Below, piece by piece: positions 561-17,477 of a DNA stretch of 47,182 bases. Position 1 is the stretch's first letter, and each line of letters begins with the position of its first letter. The position numbers and the translations under genes were made by a program. Origin of the DNA: Mycobacterium sp. UM_WGJ (lineage in GTDB: Bacteria > Actinomycetota > Actinomycetes > Mycobacteriales > Mycobacteriaceae); NCBI RefSeq assembly GCF_000455125.1, contig NZ_AUWR01000045.1, positions 1 through 47,182 on the forward strand, read 5' to 3'. Below the pieces are notes generated by a model. The model saw only the letters and a program-made list of their open reading frames with translations. It searched no databases and had not been told where the DNA came from.

Positions 561-1196
561 TCAGGACGCCTGGCCGTAGATGCTGCTGACCCAGACGTGG
601 GTCAATGTGTCGACCACCTTCTCGTGAGGTACCGAAGGCTGCTCGCCGACCAGCGCTGCCATCATGGTGCGCTCGTTCATCTGGTTCAGTGATGTCGCCA
701 GATCCAGGGCGTCGATGGTCGTCGGCGCGGCGCCGCGCTCGCGTTCCGCGGTGATCATCGCAGCGGTCTGCTCGATCCACCTCTGCATGAAGCCGTTCCA
801 CATCGCCTTGAACTCCGGACTGGTGGCCAGTGCCTCGGTTCCGGCCCGGGCGATCGCGCGATGCGAGCTGAACGCGATGAAGAACGCTTTGATGCCACTG
901 CGCCAGATCCGGCGCGGGTCGGTGGGCAGTCGTTGCACCGCCCCGACGAACTCCGAGTCGGCCGCGGCGATCAGCGGCTCCAGCAGCGAGAGCAGCACCG
1001 CGTCCTTGGACTTGAAATAGAAGTAGAAGGTGGGTCGCGAGATCCCGGCGCCTTTGGCCAGGTCGTCGACCGAGATCTCGGCCAGGGGGCGCTGCTCGAG
1101 CAGTCGTTCGGCGGTGGCCAGGATGGCCAGCTCCCGATCGTCGCCGGATGGCCGCGCCGCGCGGCGTCCGTGACGGGTGGCATTGGGGCTGGCCAT
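561..1196 (-). CDS. ethR: TetR/CamR-family repressor EthR
   Basis: This 211-aa protein closely resembles M. tuberculosis EthR (Rv3855) along its whole length. Shared blocks include RPSGDDRELAILATAE, ISVDDLAKGAGISRPTFYFYF (residues 41-61, the helix-turn-helix), MNERT and the C-terminal SIYG. In the known family EthR represses the divergent monooxygenase gene ethA, and small hydrophobic ligands release it. The open frame extends to 1361, but that would run through the ethA start. ATG 1196 gives the family-length protein and leaves a 76-bp shared intergenic region. The upstream extension is rejected. Confidence 0.95.
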   Translation of the reverse strand: MASPNATRHGRRAARPSGDDRELAILATAERLLEQRPLAEISVDDLAKGAGISRPTFYFYFKSKDAVLLSLLEPLIAAADSEFVGAVQRLPTDPRRIWRSGIKAFFIAFSSHRAIARAGTEALATSPEFKAMWNGFMQRWIEQTAAMITAERERGAAPTTIDALDLATSLNQMNERTMMAALVGEQPSVPHEKVVDTLTHVWVSSIYGQAS

Positions 1197-1272
1197 GGGC
1201 GCTACTTTACACGACGTTGATTTACTCAACAGGGTGTTGACCGACTCGACACACCGTTGATAATCTGGCGCC
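1197..1272. promoter_or_regulatory. ethR-ethA divergent promoter and probable EthR operator
   Basis: The 76 bp between the two divergent genes hold a perfect inverted repeat, TCAACA (1226-1231) GGG TGTTGA (1235-1240). Two further CGTTGA words lie at 1215-1220 and 1255-1260, and a related CTCGAC at 1245-1250. In M. tuberculosis EthR binds cooperatively to a repeat-rich operator in this same gap. The repeats and spacing are seen directly; EthR binding here is inferred. Confidence 0.75.
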
Positions 1273-2742
1273 ATGACTGAACACCTCGATGTTGTGATCG
1301 TCGGCGCCGGCATCTCCGGTATCAGCGCGGCCTGGCACCTGCAGAACCGCTGCCCGAACAAGAGCTACGCCATCCTGGAAAGCCGGGACAACCTCGGTGG
1401 TACCTGGGACCTGTTCAAATACCCCGGCATCCGCTCGGACTCCGACATGTTCACCCTGGGCTTCCGGTTCAAGCCGTGGCGGTCGGCGCACTCGATCGCC
1501 GAAGGCGCAGACATCTGGAACTACATCAATGAGGCCGCCGTCGAGAACGGCATTGACAAGCACATCCGCTACCGGCACCGGGTCGTTTCGGCCGACTGGT
1601 CCGACGCCGACAACCAGTGGACGGTCACCGTCGACAACAACGGCGAGCAACAGCAGATCACCACGTCATTCGTGTTCGCGTGCAGCGGCTACTACAACTA
1701 CGAACAGGGCTACTCGCCGGAATTCCCCGGCGCCGCGGACTTCGCCGGCACCATCGTGCACCCGCAGCACTGGCCGGAGGACCTGGACTACGCCGGCAAG
1801 AAGATTGTGGTGATCGGCAGCGGCGCCACCGCGGTGACGTTGATTCCCGCGCTGGTCAACTCCGGCGCCGGGCATGTGACCATGCTGCAGCGGTCGCCGA
1901 CCTACATCGGCGCGCTGCCTCTGGTTGACCCGTTCGCCGTTCAGGCGAACCGGTTCCTGCCGACCAAAGCGGCGCACTTCGCCAACCGCTGGAAGGCGAT
2001 CGGCTTCAGCACTCTGCAGTATCAGCTGGCGCGGAAGTTTCCCAAGTACATGCGCAAGACGCTGATGACGATGGCCAAGCACCGGCTGCCGGAAGGCTTC
2101 GATGTGCAGAAGCACTTCGGGCCGCGGTACAACCCGTGGGACGAGCGGTTGTGCTTGGCGCCCAACGGTGACCTGTTCAAGACCATTCGCAGCGGCAAGG
2201 CGGACGTCGTCACCGACACAATCGACACGTTCACCAAGACCGGGATCCGGCTGAACTCCGGCCAGGAACTCGACGCCGACATCATCATCACCGCGACCGG
2301 GCTGAACATGCAGCTGCTGGGTGGGGCATCGCTGCTGCGCAACGGCGAGCCGATCGATCTGCCCAAGGCGATGACCTACAAGGGCCTGATGTTCTCCGGG
2401 GTGCCCAACGCCGCGGTGACCTTCGGCTACACCAACGCGTCGTGGACGCTCAAGGCCGACCTGGTCTCGGAGTTCGTCTGCCGGGTGCTCAACTACATGG
2501 ACGACAACGGATTCGACCGGGTCGAGCCGCAGCACCCCGGTGCCGCGGTGAAGGAAGAGCCGTTCATGGACTTCAGCCCCGGCTACTTCCGCCGGGCGAT
2601 GGACGACCTGCCGCGCTCGGGCTCGGAGGCTCCGTGGCGGCTCAAGCAGAACTACCTGCTGGACCTGCGGCTTATCCGGCACGGCAAGGTGGACGAGAAG
2701 TCGCTGAAGTTCAGCAAGCACCGGGCGCCGGTAAGCGTCTAG
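1273..2742 (+). CDS. ethA: FAD-containing Baeyer-Villiger monooxygenase EthA
   Basis: This 489-aa protein has the same length as M. tuberculosis EthA (Rv3854c). It has an N-terminal FAD Rossmann motif, GAGISG (about residues 11-16). The Baeyer-Villiger fingerprint FxGxxxHxxxW is present as FAGTIVHPQHW (157-167), and a second NADPH Rossmann motif, GSGATA, lies near 182. The family oxidises ketones and thioethers; in M. tuberculosis it activates ethionamide-type prodrugs, and its native substrate is still debated. Divergent ethR upstream suggests conserved repression. ATG 1273 is the only start consistent with the promoter gap. Confidence 0.95.
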   Translation: MTEHLDVVIVGAGISGISAAWHLQNRCPNKSYAILESRDNLGGTWDLFKYPGIRSDSDMFTLGFRFKPWRSAHSIAEGADIWNYINEAAVENGIDKHIRYRHRVVSADWSDADNQWTVTVDNNGEQQQITTSFVFACSGYYNYEQGYSPEFPGAADFAGTIVHPQHWPEDLDYAGKKIVVIGSGATAVTLIPALVNSGAGHVTMLQRSPTYIGALPLVDPFAVQANRFLPTKAAHFANRWKAIGFSTLQYQLARKFPKYMRKTLMTMAKHRLPEGFDVQKHFGPRYNPWDERLCLAPNGDLFKTIRSGKADVVTDTIDTFTKTGIRLNSGQELDADIIITATGLNMQLLGGASLLRNGEPIDLPKAMTYKGLMFSGVPNAAVTFGYTNASWTLKADLVSEFVCRVLNYMDDNGFDRVEPQHPGAAVKEEPFMDFSPGYFRRAMDDLPRSGSEAPWRLKQNYLLDLRLIRHGKVDEKSLKFSKHRAPVSV

Positions 2743-2769
2743 CGGCGATCGCGAGGGCGGCGGGGCCGG
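2742..2769 (+). repeat. Dispersed GCGGCGATCGC repeat, copy 2
   Basis: GCGGCGATCGCGAGGGCGGC continues to GGGGCCGG. It overlaps the last base of the ethA stop codon and lies in the short convergent gap before the yggS 3' end. Same family as the copy at 51. Confidence 0.6.
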
Positions 2770-2778
2770 CGCCCGGTG

Positions 2779-3510
2779 TTAAGGGCGCTCCGGCCAGTAG
2801 TAGGAGTCGGGGTAGGGCCGGGATCCGAACAGCGCGGTCCCGATCCGCACCTCGGTAGCGCCCTCGGCGATGGCCAGCGCGAAATCGCCGCTCATCCCCA
2901 TCGACAGCCGCGGCACGACGTGGCCGTGTTCGGCCGCGGTATCGCGTAACTGGCGCAGCCGGCGGAAACAGCCGCGGACGGTGTCGGGGTCGTCGGTGTT
3001 GATGGCCAGCGTCATCAGGCCGCGCACCCGCATCGTGGAGTAGTCGGCCAGCTCGTCGAGGAACGGCAGCAGCTGGTCGGGATCCAGGCCGTACTTGCTG
3101 GGCTCGTCAGAGGTCTTGACCTGCACCAGCACGTCGATGACGCGGTTCTCGGCGCGCAGATGGCGGTCGAGCGCCACCGCAAGTTTGGACCGGTCCAAAG
3201 ACTGCACCTCCGCGGCCAACCGTGCCACCACGCCCGCCTTGTTGGTCTGCAGGTGTCCGATCATCACCCAGTCGATCCCCGGGCCGGCCTCCTCGGTGGC
3301 CAACGCCGCCGCCTTGTCCTTGATCTCTTGGACCTTGTTCTCGCCGAATCGGTGCATGCCCAGATCGACGGCGTCGCGGATCAGCTCGGGACCGAAGGTC
3401 TTGCTCACCGGCAGGATGTCGACGTCTGCGGGCGAACGCCCCGCGGCATGGCACGCGTCGTCGACGCGCGCGCGAAGCTGTTCCCAACGCGCCCGCAGGG
3501 TGGCGTTCAT
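2779..3510 (-). CDS. YggS/PROSC-family PLP homeostasis protein
   Basis: This 243-aa protein is a single-domain fold-type III PLP-binding protein. K37 in LPVSKTFG is the expected Schiff-base lysine. Family blocks FGENKVQEIKDKA, WVMIGHLQTNK, LMTLA, LSMGMSGDF and VRIGTALFG are all present. The family buffers free pyridoxal phosphate and is not known to be catalytic. The open frame continues to 3615, but ATG 3510 matches the family N-terminus and lies 13 bp after the rraA stop, so the two are probably co-transcribed. M. tuberculosis keeps its yggS-like gene (Rv2148c) in the division cluster, so this could be a second copy. Confidence 0.9.
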   Translation of the reverse strand: MNATLRARWEQLRARVDDACHAAGRSPADVDILPVSKTFGPELIRDAVDLGMHRFGENKVQEIKDKAAALATEEAGPGIDWVMIGHLQTNKAGVVARLAAEVQSLDRSKLAVALDRHLRAENRVIDVLVQVKTSDEPSKYGLDPDQLLPFLDELADYSTMRVRGLMTLAINTDDPDTVRGCFRRLRQLRDTAAEHGHVVPRLSMGMSGDFALAIAEGATEVRIGTALFGSRPYPDSYYWPERP

Positions 3511-12979: not shown

Positions 12980-12998
12980 TTAGGTTTGACTTAATTGT
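12980..12998. promoter_or_regulatory. Second, weaker iron-box-like sequence upstream of bfrB
   Basis: TTAGGTTTGACTTAATTGT matches the IdeR consensus at 12 of 19 positions. It overlaps the 3' end of the LCP gene. Tandem IdeR boxes upstream of bfrB are known in M. tuberculosis, which makes a weak distal box plausible here. Confidence 0.4.
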
Positions 12999-14163
12999 CG
13001 GTGCCCGATTCGGGTGGTGTATCGCGACGCAATGCGTCGAATAGCTGGGTGGCTTCGGCGTCGTTCCATACCACCGCGTCGCCGGCCTCGGTCCAGACGA
13101 ACTCGCCGATCGGCACGGTCAGCATGGTGGTGGTACCGCGCAGCGCCCACCCCAGGGCCGCCAGGTCGACCACGCCGGTGCCGTCGTCCACCGTCACCGC
13201 GCGTGCGGCGGCGCGCGGCACGCGGTACCAGCGCAGCGGATTGAGCCACACGGCGGGATCGGCGACCCGGGCCAGCAGCGCCGACAGGAACAGCCGCTGA
13301 TGGGCCATCCGGTCCAGGTCGGCGCGCGGCGTGGCCCTGCTGCGGACGTAGCCCAGCGCGGCCCTACCGGCGACCGTCTGACAGCCGGCCGGCAGATTCA
13401 GTCCCGCCAGGGGGTCGTCGATCGGTTCATCCGGGCATAACGTGACGCCGCCCAGGGCATCGACGAGCGCGGCGAAGCCGCCGAATCCGATCTCGAGATA
13501 GTGGTCCAGCCGCAGGCCGGTGGCCTGCTCCACAGTCCGGGTCAGCAGGGGGGCGCCACCGAGGGTGTAGGCGGCGTTGATCTTGTCTTTGCCGTAGCCC
13601 GGGACCGTGACGTAGGAGTCGCGCGGCAGGGATACCACCGTGGCCGGCGACCCGGATCCCGGGCTGGGCAGGTGGACCAGCAACACCGTGTCGGTGCGTC
13701 CGCTGCCGAGGTTCCCGCCGGTGCTCAGGGTCTGCTGCTCCTGGGCAGAGAGGTCAGCGCGGCTGTCCGAACCGACCAGCAGCCACGTCGTCCCGCGGGC
13801 CGGCGGCGGACGGTCGGCATAACCGGAGAACGCCGCGGTGCGTTGCAGCGCGGTGTCGAGCCAGGCCGCGGCGCCTACCAGGGACGCGGTGGCGAGCAAG
13901 GCCGCCAGCGCGGCGAGCGCCAACAGACGACGTGGCCACGATCTCCGCCGGCGCGCAGCGGGGGGACGCGGCGCAGGTGCGCGCGCCGCCGGCGGCCGCG
14001 GCGCGGGCGGAGGTGGCGGCGCGGGGGGCGCCGCTGGCCTCCAGATCGCCCGGGGCGGCGGCGAGACCGGCCGGCCACGGGGGTCGCGATACAACATCGG
14101 CGGCGGTTCACGACGCGGCGGTGGGGGGCGCCAGGGCGGACCCGGCCCGCGATCACCGTTCAC
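12991..14163 (-). CDS. LytR-CpsA-Psr (LCP) family cell-wall ligase
   Basis: This 390-aa protein has a Pro-rich cytoplasmic N-terminus (about residues 1-72), one membrane helix (about 78-101) and an extracellular LCP domain. Hallmarks are LLVGSDSRADL, the arginine pair region GRTDTVLLVHL, SLPRDSYV, INAAYTLGG and GYVRSRATPRADLDR. LCP enzymes transfer polyprenyl-linked polymers to peptidoglycan; mycobacterial Lcp1 attaches arabinogalactan. M. tuberculosis has only a short LCP-like gene (Rv3840) at this position, so this looks like the full-length version. The start is GTG 14163. It is divergent from the PGRS-GH5 gene. Confidence 0.9.
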   Translation of the reverse strand: MNGDRGPGPPWRPPPPRREPPPMLYRDPRGRPVSPPPRAIWRPAAPPAPPPPPAPRPPAARAPAPRPPAARRRRSWPRRLLALAALAALLATASLVGAAAWLDTALQRTAAFSGYADRPPPARGTTWLLVGSDSRADLSAQEQQTLSTGGNLGSGRTDTVLLVHLPSPGSGSPATVVSLPRDSYVTVPGYGKDKINAAYTLGGAPLLTRTVEQATGLRLDHYLEIGFGGFAALVDALGGVTLCPDEPIDDPLAGLNLPAGCQTVAGRAALGYVRSRATPRADLDRMAHQRLFLSALLARVADPAVWLNPLRWYRVPRAAARAVTVDDGTGVVDLAALGWALRGTTTMLTVPIGEFVWTEAGDAVVWNDAEATQLFDALRRDTPPESGTDN

Positions 14164-14357: not shown

Positions 14358-16700
14358 ATGACTCGTCAGTGCAGCACGAAGCGGAACCGCCGGGTTGCCG
14401 GGCTGGGTACGGCAGCGGGGGCGTTTCTGGCGTTCGGGGTGCTGCCGCTGGCGCCGGCACCGGTGGCGGCCGCCGAGGGCTTCGAGGCCGTGTTCGAGCA
14501 GGTGCTGGCCCCGTTCATGGACACGACTGCCGGCGGCCTGGACTGGGATGCGGTGTTCAGCCCTGCGGCCTGGGATGCGTTCGCCTCCGCGACGAACTGG
14601 GATGGCCTGCTGGCCGGTTCGGCGGCTGCGTCGTCGAGCCTGGAGAGCCTGCTCTACCCCGACGTTGCGGCGCTGGTCCAGAACTGGGTCTACAGCCCGC
14701 TCTACACCGGTATCGACTGGTTGGTCGGCAACCCGTTGATGGCGCCGGTCATCGAGGTGTCCAACCAGATCAGTGGGGTGCTGGGCCTGGGCCTGATGAT
14801 CGGCGATGGTGCGGACGGTACGGCGGAGCATGCCGCCGGTGGTGCGGGCGGCTGGTTGTTCGGCGACGGCGGGGCGGGCTGGGACAACAGCGAGTTCGGT
14901 GGTAGCGGTGGGGCCGGAGGAGCGGCCGGGTTCTTCGGCAACGGTGGCGCCGGTGGTGACGGCGGCGAAGGCGGCAGCGGTGGTGTCGGCGGAGTCGGCG
15001 GGTGGTACATGGGGGTCGGGGGCGCCGGCGGCGCCGGTGGCGACGGCGTAAATGGCGGCATCGGCGGGGCCGGTGGCGACGGGCGCGGCTGGATGCTCGG
15101 TATCGGCGGTGCGGGTGGCGACGGCGGTGACGGCACCCATCTCGGCGGCAACGGCGGTGACGGCGGAAACGGTTCGATCTGGTTCGGCGGCGGTGGCGCC
15201 GGCGGGGACGGCGGCAACGGCGTCTACCTGGGTCAGGGCGACCTGCCCGCGCTGGGCGGGGCCGGCGGCCTCGCCGGATCGCTGGGCACCCACGGCGCGG
15301 TGGGCCACTTCGGCACGCTCGACGGAGCTCCGGAGAGGGCACCGGCCGAACTCGGAACCGCCGGCAACTGGATCGTCGACCAGGACGGCCGGGTGGTCAT
15401 CCTGCAGGGTGTCAACCAGGTGTACAAGTCACCGCCGTTCTCGCCCGGCGGGAACGGCTTCGGCGACGACGACGCGGCTTTCCTGGCCGCCAACGGCTTT
15501 ACCGCGGTGCGGCTGGGCGTGTACTGGTCTGAGATCGAGCCGCAGCCCGGGGTGTACAACTTCGCCTACCTCGACTCGGTCAAGGAGACCATCGAGACCC
15601 TCAAGGCGCACGGCATCGTCAGCGTGATCGACATGCACCAGGACCTCTACAGCGAGGAGATCGGTGGCCACGGCGCGCCGGACTGGGCGACCATATTCAA
15701 CCCGGCCGACAATGACCCCACCCAGCCGTTCCCGTTCGCCTACGCGCTCAACCCCGCGCAGAACCAGGCGTGGGATGCGTTCTGGTCCAACGAGAAGGTG
15801 GACGGAGCCGGGCTGCTGAACCACTACTCCCGGATGTGGCAGGTCACCGCCGACTACCTGGGCGGCACCCCGGGCGTGGCCGGCTACGAGATCATGAACG
15901 AGCCGTGGCCGGGTACGTCGTGGCTGGGCAGCTTCCTCGGCAACGCGCACTTCGACCGCGAGACGCTGACCCCGTTCTACGACCAGGTGACCTCGGCGAT
16001 CCGGTCGGTCGACCCGAACACCACGGTGTACTACGAGCCCAACGTACTGTTCGGCAACGCGACCGCGCTCACCAACCTGCGCCCGGTCGATGACGACAAC
16101 TCGGTGTTCGCCTTCCACGACTACTGCATCTTCGACGCCCTGGGCGGGGGCAGCGCTTTCGGCTGCTCACTGTGGGACGGGATGATGATGGAAGGTGCCC
16201 AGCGCTTCATCGACCGCTACAACGTCCCGGCGGTGGTCACCGAGTTCGGCGCCACCCACAACACCGACACCATCACCAGCCAGCTCAACTCGATCGACTC
16301 GCACAGATTCGGCTGGCTGTACTGGGGTTACACCAACGAGGCCGGCTCGTTGGTGCACAACACCAACCTGCCGCCGGTCGGCGACAACGTCGACGAGGCC
16401 ATCGTTGCGACTCTGGCGCAGCCTTACCCGCAGGTGATCGCCGGAATCCCGAACAGCTGGTCGTTCTCCGGCGGCGTCTTCTCCTTCAGCTACTCCACGG
16501 CGATGGCCGACGGCTCGGGCAACTTCGACGCCGGGTCGCAGACTCAGATCTCGATCCCGGATGTCCAGTTCCCGAACGGCTACCAGGTCAGCGTGACCGG
16601 CGGTCAGGTGGTCTCGGCGGACAACGCTGCGGTCCTAGTCATCGGATCCAACGCCGGCGCCAGCACGATCACCGTCACGGTGACTCGGGCGGTGGGCTGA
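14358..16700 (+). CDS. Secreted PGRS-linked GH5 endoglycoceramidase-like glycosidase
   Basis: This 780-aa protein has four parts. A signal peptide ends near VAAAEG (about residue 40). A Trp-rich helical segment (about 40-150) takes the place of a PE domain. A PGRS-like stretch (about 155-315) is rich in GGAGGxGG, introduced by GDGADGTAEHAAGGAGG. A glycoside hydrolase family 5 domain (about 335-690) resembles endoglycoceramidases, with GVNQVYKSPPF, DMHQDLYSEEIGGHGAPDWA, acid/base E515 (IMNEPWPG) and nucleophile E629 (VVTEFGATHN). A small C-terminal beta domain ends it. Known relatives cleave the oligosaccharide-ceramide bond; the substrate here is inferred. No PE domain is present. Monocistronic. 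Confidence 0.92.
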   Translation: MTRQCSTKRNRRVAGLGTAAGAFLAFGVLPLAPAPVAAAEGFEAVFEQVLAPFMDTTAGGLDWDAVFSPAAWDAFASATNWDGLLAGSAAASSSLESLLYPDVAALVQNWVYSPLYTGIDWLVGNPLMAPVIEVSNQISGVLGLGLMIGDGADGTAEHAAGGAGGWLFGDGGAGWDNSEFGGSGGAGGAAGFFGNGGAGGDGGEGGSGGVGGVGGWYMGVGGAGGAGGDGVNGGIGGAGGDGRGWMLGIGGAGGDGGDGTHLGGNGGDGGNGSIWFGGGGAGGDGGNGVYLGQGDLPALGGAGGLAGSLGTHGAVGHFGTLDGAPERAPAELGTAGNWIVDQDGRVVILQGVNQVYKSPPFSPGGNGFGDDDAAFLAANGFTAVRLGVYWSEIEPQPGVYNFAYLDSVKETIETLKAHGIVSVIDMHQDLYSEEIGGHGAPDWATIFNPADNDPTQPFPFAYALNPAQNQAWDAFWSNEKVDGAGLLNHYSRMWQVTADYLGGTPGVAGYEIMNEPWPGTSWLGSFLGNAHFDRETLTPFYDQVTSAIRSVDPNTTVYYEPNVLFGNATALTNLRPVDDDNSVFAFHDYCIFDALGGGSAFGCSLWDGMMMEGAQRFIDRYNVPAVVTEFGATHNTDTITSQLNSIDSHRFGWLYWGYTNEAGSLVHNTNLPPVGDNVDEAIVATLAQPYPQVIAGIPNSWSFSGGVFSFSYSTAMADGSGNFDAGSQTQISIPDVQFPNGYQVSVTGGQVVSADNAAVLVIGSNAGASTITVTVTRAVG
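14820..15300 (+). repeat. PGRS-type GGC/GGT-rich coding repeat
   Basis: This stretch encodes irregular GGAGGDGG and GGNGG units interrupted by short hydrophobic words (GWMLGIGG, GSIWFGGG, GWYMGVGG). It is of the kind that changes length by recombination in PE_PGRS genes, but it is embedded in a gene without PE. Confidence 0.85.
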
Positions 16701-16724: not shown

Positions 16725-17477
16725 TCAGCGCAGCCAGCCCAGCTGGTCGGCGAACAGGGCGTATCCGACGAACGCCACGGTGTCGATCAGGGCGTGCGCC
16801 AGGACCAGCGGCCACAGCCGTCCGGTGCGCTGCCAGGTGTAGCCGAACACCAGGCCCATGGCGATATTGCCCAGCCCAGCGCCGAAACCTTGATAGAGGT
16901 GGTAGGCGCCACGGAGTAGGGCGGAGCAGGCCAGCGCCACCCACGGCGAAACCCGCAGCTGCCGTAGCCGGGTCAGCAGGTAGCCGACCACGATCACTTC
17001 CTCGGCGAACGCGTTGGCGAAGGCGATCAACGCCAGCATCGGAGCGCGCCACCAGGTGTCGTTGATCGCTGCGGGAATGACGTCGGCGTTGAGACCCAGG
17101 GTTCGTGCCAGCAGGTACAGGCCCAGGCCGGGCAGCCCGATCAGGGCGGCCAGGCCGAGGCCGCCGGCCAGGTCGCTGCGGCGGGGCCACCGAGTGAGTC
17201 CGATGCGGGCGGGCCCGAATCCGCTGCGCCACAGCAGGTACAGCGCCAGTGCACCCCACGCGATCAGCTGCGCCGCCCAGGCGGCGTTGAGACCGAGGTC
17301 GATCAGGTCGAAATAGGACCGGCGCGGGTTGAGGGGGATCCGCTGGGCGCCGAGGTCGCGCAACACCGCATCGGCCAGCTGCAGCATGGCGGTGACGGCG
17401 CTCAGCCCGTAGGTGACCGCCAGGACCACAACGATCTCCAGCCGCAGGGCGTGTCGCTGGGGCTGGAGCTCGGTCAC
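16725..17477 (-). CDS. CPBP-family (CAAX-protease/Abi-like) membrane protein
   Basis: This 250-aa protein has about seven hydrophobic helices. It contains the family motifs in order: FAEEVIVVGYL with E159-E160, AYHLYQG with H193, and LAHALID with H228. CPBP proteins are intramembrane glutamic proteases or their inactive relatives. The arginine of the classical EExxxR motif is missing here (EEVIVV), so activity is uncertain. The start is GTG 17477. It converges on the PGRS-GH5 gene with a 24-bp gap, so it is a separate unit. Confidence 0.85.
   Translation of the reverse strand: MTELQPQRHALRLEIVVVLAVTYGLSAVTAMLQLADAVLRDLGAQRIPLNPRRSYFDLIDLGLNAAWAAQLIAWGALALYLLWRSGFGPARIGLTRWPRRSDLAGGLGLAALIGLPGLGLYLLARTLGLNADVIPAAINDTWWRAPMLALIAFANAFAEEVIVVGYLLTRLRQLRVSPWVALACSALLRGAYHLYQGFGAGLGNIAMGLVFGYTWQRTGRLWPLVLAHALIDTVAFVGYALFADQLGWLR

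Follow-up and report, generated by a model that had tools for sequence, protein, structure and literature searches.

The window, by which is meant the whole stretch of 47,182 nucleotides from Mycobacterium sp. UM_WGJ that was analysed, carries on its forward strand a gene for a 780-residue protein in which a signal-peptide-like start, a linker, a PGRS region, a GH5 catalytic domain and a GH5 C-terminal domain (GH5_C) follow one another in that order. The features of this gene, together with two neighbouring genes that are given as context only, are as follows:

12991..14163, minus strand: neighbouring gene of the LytR-CpsA-Psr family (PF03816, 4.6e-38), context only
14358..16700, plus strand: whole gene, an ATG-started open frame of 780 amino acids plus stop
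14358..14474, plus strand: signal-peptide-like N-terminus, residues 1-39, assigned heuristically from sequence features
14475..14798, plus strand: Trp-containing linker, residues 40-147, with a degenerate anchor of the L-GRPLI type (N136 to I148) at its end
14799..15317, plus strand: PGRS region, residues 148-320 (49% Gly; Pfam PF21526 at 148-216, 3.1e-12, 47.1 bits against a cut-off of 27)
15462..16337, plus strand: GH5 catalytic domain, residues 369-660 (Pfam PF00150, 1.2e-28, 100.8 bits against a curated cut-off of 23.5)
15900..15902, plus strand: codon of E515, acid/base, aligned with a position without Glu in 2osy
16242..16244, plus strand: codon of E629, nucleophile, aligned with a position without Glu in 2osx and 5j14
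16422..16682, plus strand: GH5 C-terminal domain, residues 689-775 (Pfam PF18564, 1.1e-12)
16725..17477, minus strand: neighbouring CAAX-protease-like gene (PF02517, 9.3e-20), context only

Much of this layout had been described in an earlier, sequence-only reading of the locus, and most of that description is borne out. The signal peptide that it reported corresponds to a signal-peptide-like start with a basic n-region, a hydrophobic stretch and an AxA-type site, and its Trp-rich segment is the linker, which holds 5 Trp; E515 (in NEPW) and E629 (in TEFG) are both where it had placed them, and the MHQD-YS and GAPxWA words to which it had drawn attention are present here and in endoglycoceramidase II (EGC II) too. 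The PGRS repeat stretch is likewise present, with a length of 173 residues (148-320) rather than about 160. As to the PE domain, which had been noted as missing, the model PF00934 has no match in the window protein or in any of 58 full-length relatives (0 of 59 proteins, Pfam). A PE domain hidden in the linker can also be ruled out, since residues 1-161 have no Pfam match above cut-off, the single hit there lying below its own cut-off.

The same reading had named a frameshift between the PGRS and GH5 parts as a ground on which the fusion could fall. In all 59 proteins (the window protein and its 58 full-length named relatives), however, PGRS and GH5 lie in one frame by Pfam, with GH5_C matched in 58 of them, and the downstream neighbours, that is, CAAX-protease-like, DUF2470 and prephenate dehydratase genes, are kept at every one of the 14 Mycolicibacter orthologue loci. 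A frameshift or assembly artefact is thus ruled out, and the fusion is real. The relatives derive from a scan in which each species was represented by one genome, and of its 107 loci the best 80 were used; 70 of the 80 belong to Mycobacteriaceae, mostly to Mycolicibacter (the M. terrae group) and Mycolicibacterium, and the alignment of the window protein with the 58 (alignment A2) leaves out 10 of these 70 that are cut by contig ends or split, as well as L147 and L096, the latter a frame without its N-terminus. The nearest relatives come from M. senuensis, M. algericus and M. longobardus, with a top identity of 86% (quick tree, see below), and by this measure the source organism belongs to Mycolicibacter. 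The position of the gene is largely conserved, in that a LytR-CpsA-Psr gene also lies upstream in 10 of the 14 orthologue loci; among the 14, the sequence of L076 and L080 is cut on the upstream side, and L079 (M. senuensis DSM 44999) and L084 (M. algericus) have other frames, without LytR-CpsA-Psr, in the ca 1.3 kb upstream. One orthologue, L033 in genome G016, contains one TAG within the matched stretch.

Nor is the fusion a one-off. It forms a family, with matches in 34 of the 148 genomes of the genus sample, some of them fragments or weak, at up to 11 places per genome (the other 114 genomes have no match), and this family sits within a wider class of PE-free PGRS proteins which is considered below. 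The genome of the window itself has six GH5 places, namely the window gene and places on C26, C40, C2, C23 (cut by the contig start) and C72 (a fragment). The paralogue on C2 (L004/L073, C2:9818-11182, minus strand), the frame of which begins after a stop and within the linker, has Gly at the nucleophile position, with N514 replaced by Ala, H587 by Gln and Y589 by Phe, and is by its sequence probably no active glycosidase. In other words, some of the GH5-PGRS copies would not be enzymes, because this one has lost the nucleophile along with other active-site residues. Elsewhere in Mycolicibacter, L093, L098 and L103 show tandem expansion, with up to three GH5 copies, some of them partial, in ca 9 kb.

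The best matches of the window protein among solved structures are endoglycoceramidases, the part of it that resembles them beginning at residue 326. The highest is 5ccu (1.1e-61), which we take to be the Rhodococcus endoglycoceramidase I (EGCase I), followed by 2osw (7.2e-36) and 6jyz (5.9e-23). With 5ccu the window protein has 34% identity over 422 columns and shares the GH5 and C-terminal domains, the catalytic Glu pair and the NEPWPG, TEFG and HQD motifs, differing from it in the PGRS and linker that stand in front. With EGC II (2osx) the identity is 30% over 418 columns, the GH5 domain, catalytic pair and MHQD-YS again being shared. The catalytic placing of E515 and E629 is confirmed by these structures, because 2osy (NAP) and 2osx and 5j14 (SFG) are without Glu at exactly the positions with which the two residues align. 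None of the residues K357, H427, D429, N514, E515, E629 and W656 varies across the 59 fusion proteins, and they are retained in 87 to 91 of 91 aligned homologues, E515 in all 91 and E629 in 90, the C2 paralogue being the sole exception at 629. Passages of PMC3526467 give GH5_27, GH5_28 and GH5_29 as endoglycosylceramidase subfamilies and assign EGC II (2osx) to GH5_28, and endoglycoceramidase appears among the GH families tabled in PMC6930893.

Finer placement comes from the NCBIfam model of EGCase I and from two trees. The model, NF051847, is matched by all 59 fusion proteins; the window protein scores 299.8 bits (2.8e-89), which does not reach the equivalog cut-off of 700 bits. In a careful tree of 51 rows (37 hand-chosen from a set of 93 sequences, plus 14 further loci), 5ccu and four family or order rows make up an EGCase I clade (100/100) with the window protein outside it, EGC II (2osw) joins L155, a 100/100 branch separating the two from the window protein, and the mycobacterial proteins form a separate clade with two rows of another family (100/99). 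Since it lies outside the 5ccu clade and below the NF051847 cut-off, the window enzyme is, by these comparisons, endoglycoceramidase-like, nearest to EGCase I and not EGCase I itself. The endoglycoceramidase-like domain of the sequence-only reading therefore holds good as to its catalytic Glu, the conserved residues that it shares with endoglycoceramidases and its best solved matches, and falls short of a place in the clade of either 5ccu or 2osw.

Within the mycobacterial clade of the careful tree, a group of proteins without PGRS is sister (100/98) to the PGRS-bearing proteins (92/92, not starred). This placement makes a single gain the likelier course, so that, to judge from the branching, PGRS was probably gained once, on a plain secreted enzyme. 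A quick tree of 87 of the 93 sequences (L076, L080, L110, L136, L141 and L142 being left out) instead nests the PGRS-less group within the PGRS proteins at 82-87% support, an arrangement that was set aside for the sister placement of the careful tree. The set of 93 is without L147, L042, L043 and L045, and the outgroup is our own choice in both trees (EGC II/L155 in the careful one).

By heuristic inspection, the N-terminus of the window protein comprises a basic n-region with RR, a hydrophobic core and an AxA-type site ending at A39, which are the features looked for in a Sec/Tat-type signal. Signal-like N-termini occur in 58 of the 59 named full-length loci under a hydrophobicity/AxA rule that chooses the best start codon, L096 being the one that fails. 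Within the same genome, all 19 PGRS proteins whose start is intact (the window protein included) have a basic region and then a hydrophobic stretch, and A39 is invariant in them; the hydrophobic core is found in 18 of the 18 others, and the AxA rule is passed by 16, once inside the core. Further along, N136 is invariant in these 19 proteins and in all 59 fusion proteins. The window linker keeps N136 and IGDGADG, and its GRPLI is degenerate (LGLMI), yet intact in the C40 paralogue. The PGRS region that follows has hydrophobic pairs at 165, 192, 215, 244, 274 and 290, spaced by 16-30 residues.

On export, anchoring, substrate and physiological use we infer the following. On balance, and with little to spare, it seems probable that the window protein is a signal-peptide-exported, envelope-held retaining beta-glycosidase of an endoglycoceramidase I-like branch of GH5 which cleaves glycosphingolipids. 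The signal peptide (Sec or Tat) would bring about transfer across the inner membrane and be cleaved off after A39, the linker with its N136/IGDGADG anchor and the PGRS would be placed at the mycomembrane, as has been proposed for PE_PGRS, and linker and PGRS together would keep the GH5 domain at the cell surface. There, E515 and E629 would cut the glycan-lipid bond of an environmental or host glycosphingolipid, and the ceramide thus released could pass to the one Ceramidase_alk family protein of the genome (PF04734, 3.7e-159; L156, C14:92754-94205, plus strand), the presence of which in the same genome supports the predicted sphingolipid role. The tether function rests on published models of PE_PGRS. 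Passages of PMC9436101 set out a sailing model in which PGRS forms a flat sandwich in the shape of a sail, one edge of which is hydrophobic and lies in the mycomembrane, carries modules C-terminally and is preceded by a helical linker up to GRPLI; according to a passage of PMC9232537, surface retention of MirA depends on an amphipathic helix that follows the PE domain. In outline the window protein agrees with this picture, with its linker and conserved N136, its IGDGADG anchor and its hydrophobic pairs.

The glycosphingolipid substrate is put forward as a prediction, since the enzyme neither groups with EGCase I in the careful tree nor reaches the cut-off of the EGCase I model. A protein with the same export and anchoring could act instead on another beta-glycoside of amphipathic character, for instance steryl glucosides or one of the organism's own glycolipids; the separate clade, in which we know of no characterised member, and the score far under the NCBIfam cut-off are both consistent with this, and the presence of many diverged copies in one genome hints at several substrates. 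We nevertheless consider it unlikely, if worth keeping in mind. Sterylglucosidases are matched far more weakly than 5ccu (1.1e-61), at 7.5e-8 for 7lpo (titled 'cytoplasmic protein' and known as Sgl1) and 1.5e-6 for SglA (8exd); moreover, the residues shared with endoglycoceramidase I are conserved and the genome encodes a ceramidase-family protein.

It may also be asked whether the PGRS holds the enzyme at all, or is a mere spacer or solubilising tail, with the enzyme set free into the medium. The related secreted GH5 proteins manage without PGRS, which means that such a tether is dispensable somewhere, and the amphipathicity of the window linker is not above that of its shuffles, 0.30 of which reach it. 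An amphipathic linker helix was considered and set aside here, as 7 of 19 proteins lie at 0.05 or less against shuffles and the window protein is not among them; across the PGRS family the linker sequences are weakly positive for amphipathicity. Against a spacer, nearly all 59 fusion proteins combine PGRS with N136 and with the anchor's IGxG, and the hydrophobic pairs recur at the 16-30 residue spacing which the straight-edge model in passages of PMC9436101 requires, such that release into the medium appears improbable. A hidden type VII substrate, exported by an ESX system without PE, can hardly be what the gene encodes. The linker does contain a YxxxD/E pentapeptide, YTGID (116-120), which could serve as the signal, and the genome has four EccC matches above cut-off, but no more than 16 of 59 fusion proteins, and 3 of the 19 PGRS proteins from the same genome, combine Y116 with D/E120, and the pentapeptide was dropped as a type VII signal for want of conservation. 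Export by ESX-5 is further argued against by the signal-peptide-like N-terminus.

PGRS without PE extends beyond the GH5 fusions. The genome of the window has 20 PGRS places and 14 PE places, with PE frames of at most 308 aa, and 13 further genomes have 78 and 44, respectively. By Pfam, 0 of these 98 PGRS places have PE within 3 kb, against the 58 PE places of the 14 fusion-carrying genomes; 34 of the 98 share a contig with PE, the nearest 25 kb off, and 64 are on contigs without PE. The count of 0 of 98 is not a random sample, because the 13 genomes were hand-picked for carrying the GH5 fusion, mostly with few PGRS places. As a control, PE was found in 23 of the 29 best-per-genome PGRS loci of the genus sample (L186 not counted), and so both PE-linked and PE-free PGRS are present in the genus. 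This control, like the search of other genera described below, used a PE profile made from 10 crude picks, three of them PPE-looking; the 0 of 98 and 0 of 59 results are Pfam-based and independent of it. In the E. coli control genome, PF00934 gave a match above cut-off. PE-free PGRS is common among the genomes examined, a class and not an oddity. The name 'PGRS repeat-containing protein' is in use in databases. Among the openly licensed papers listed (40 of 791 in one of the listings on PE-less PGRS), none was recognised as describing either a PE-less PGRS or a mycobacterial endoglycoceramidase, as judged by titles, abstract openings and some passages.

Close published counterparts are PE_PGRS proteins with a C-terminal enzyme, such as PecA/PE_PGRS35 and PE_PGRS11, which in passages of PMC9436101 and PMC7550000 also have PGRS between the export part and the enzyme, with the linker asparagine and a GRPLI-type anchor. 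The window protein differs from them in having a signal-peptide-like start in place of PE/ESX-5 and GH5 as its cargo. LipY offers a precedent that speaks for the main reading above, in that one and the same enzyme is preceded in different species by PE, by PPE or by a signal peptide (PMC7550000, in part); it differs in being a lipase, and PGRS is not named for it in those passages. One locus, L178 (G053, frame 922-2880, plus strand), joins a PE-free PGRS to a PE-PGRS_C aspartyl-peptidase-like (PecA-type) domain (PF20729, 6e-57), and another, L201 (G049), to Ig/cadherin repeats. To our knowledge, the PecA-type PE-PGRS_C domain has so far been known behind PE.

On a wider scale, PGRS hits occur in 2 of 60 genera of an order sample of 200 genomes, and in 21 genomes of a family sample of 201, of which 10 lie outside the genus of the window, in six other genera (G217, G328, G354, G365, G369, G410, G434, G442, G472 and G477; G369 is below cut-off). 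Our PE profile finds no PE in the 13 PGRS frames of these genera (L243-L255), 12 of which have a signal-peptide-like start by eye, L253 running off its stretch. The exact anchor [GC][ND]GADG is present in 9 of the 13 and is followed by TA..P.G in 8, as in mycobacteria; L251 and L253 are without it, and the linker of L243 has words in common with mycobacterial ones (PMHQLAQAWIASPIG...IN). Since PE-free PGRS occurs in many relatives and in six other genera, PGRS is perhaps older than PE_PGRS. We regard it as reasonably probable that PGRS is an older, signal-peptide-exported envelope anchor, occurring in Mycolicibacter and Mycolicibacterium as well as in several genera of the family, which carries endoglycoceramidase-like enzymes, a PecA-like aspartyl peptidase and adhesin-type repeats, and that in some slow growers PE replaced the signal peptide, giving rise to PE_PGRS and type VII secretion of these proteins. 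Horizontal transfer of PGRS between genera is possible.

Published accounts concern the PE-linked form, which is treated in part of PMC11939664. Passages of PMC7550000 have PE_PGRS arising in slow growers, part of PMC10216338 has it solely in pathogenic strains, and part of PMC1660551 finds fast growers to be without PE_PGRS and two M. avium genes to be wrongly annotated as 'PE_PGRS'. In part of PMC12209268, Mycolicibacter terrae is given 12 pe genes and M. engbaekii 11, with 0 pe_pgrs in either. This zero count fits and yet hides PGRS, because PE-free PGRS places number 20 in G000 and 16 in G073, the two Mycolicibacter-type genomes checked for PE, the latter with 12 PE places and near-identical to M. 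engbaekii in the quick tree. If PE-free PGRS proteins do reach the mycomembrane by Sec/Tat, the role of PGRS becomes testable apart from PE/ESX-5, in laboratory fast growers. The window gene further indicates that mycobacteria have a family of putative surface glycolipid hydrolases, of which we know of no characterised member. PGRS is joined to other domains as well: L067 (C51 of the same genome) has it with DUF2599, the PGRS match being just under cut-off, and L203 (G018) with a weak CMD domain that is below cut-off.
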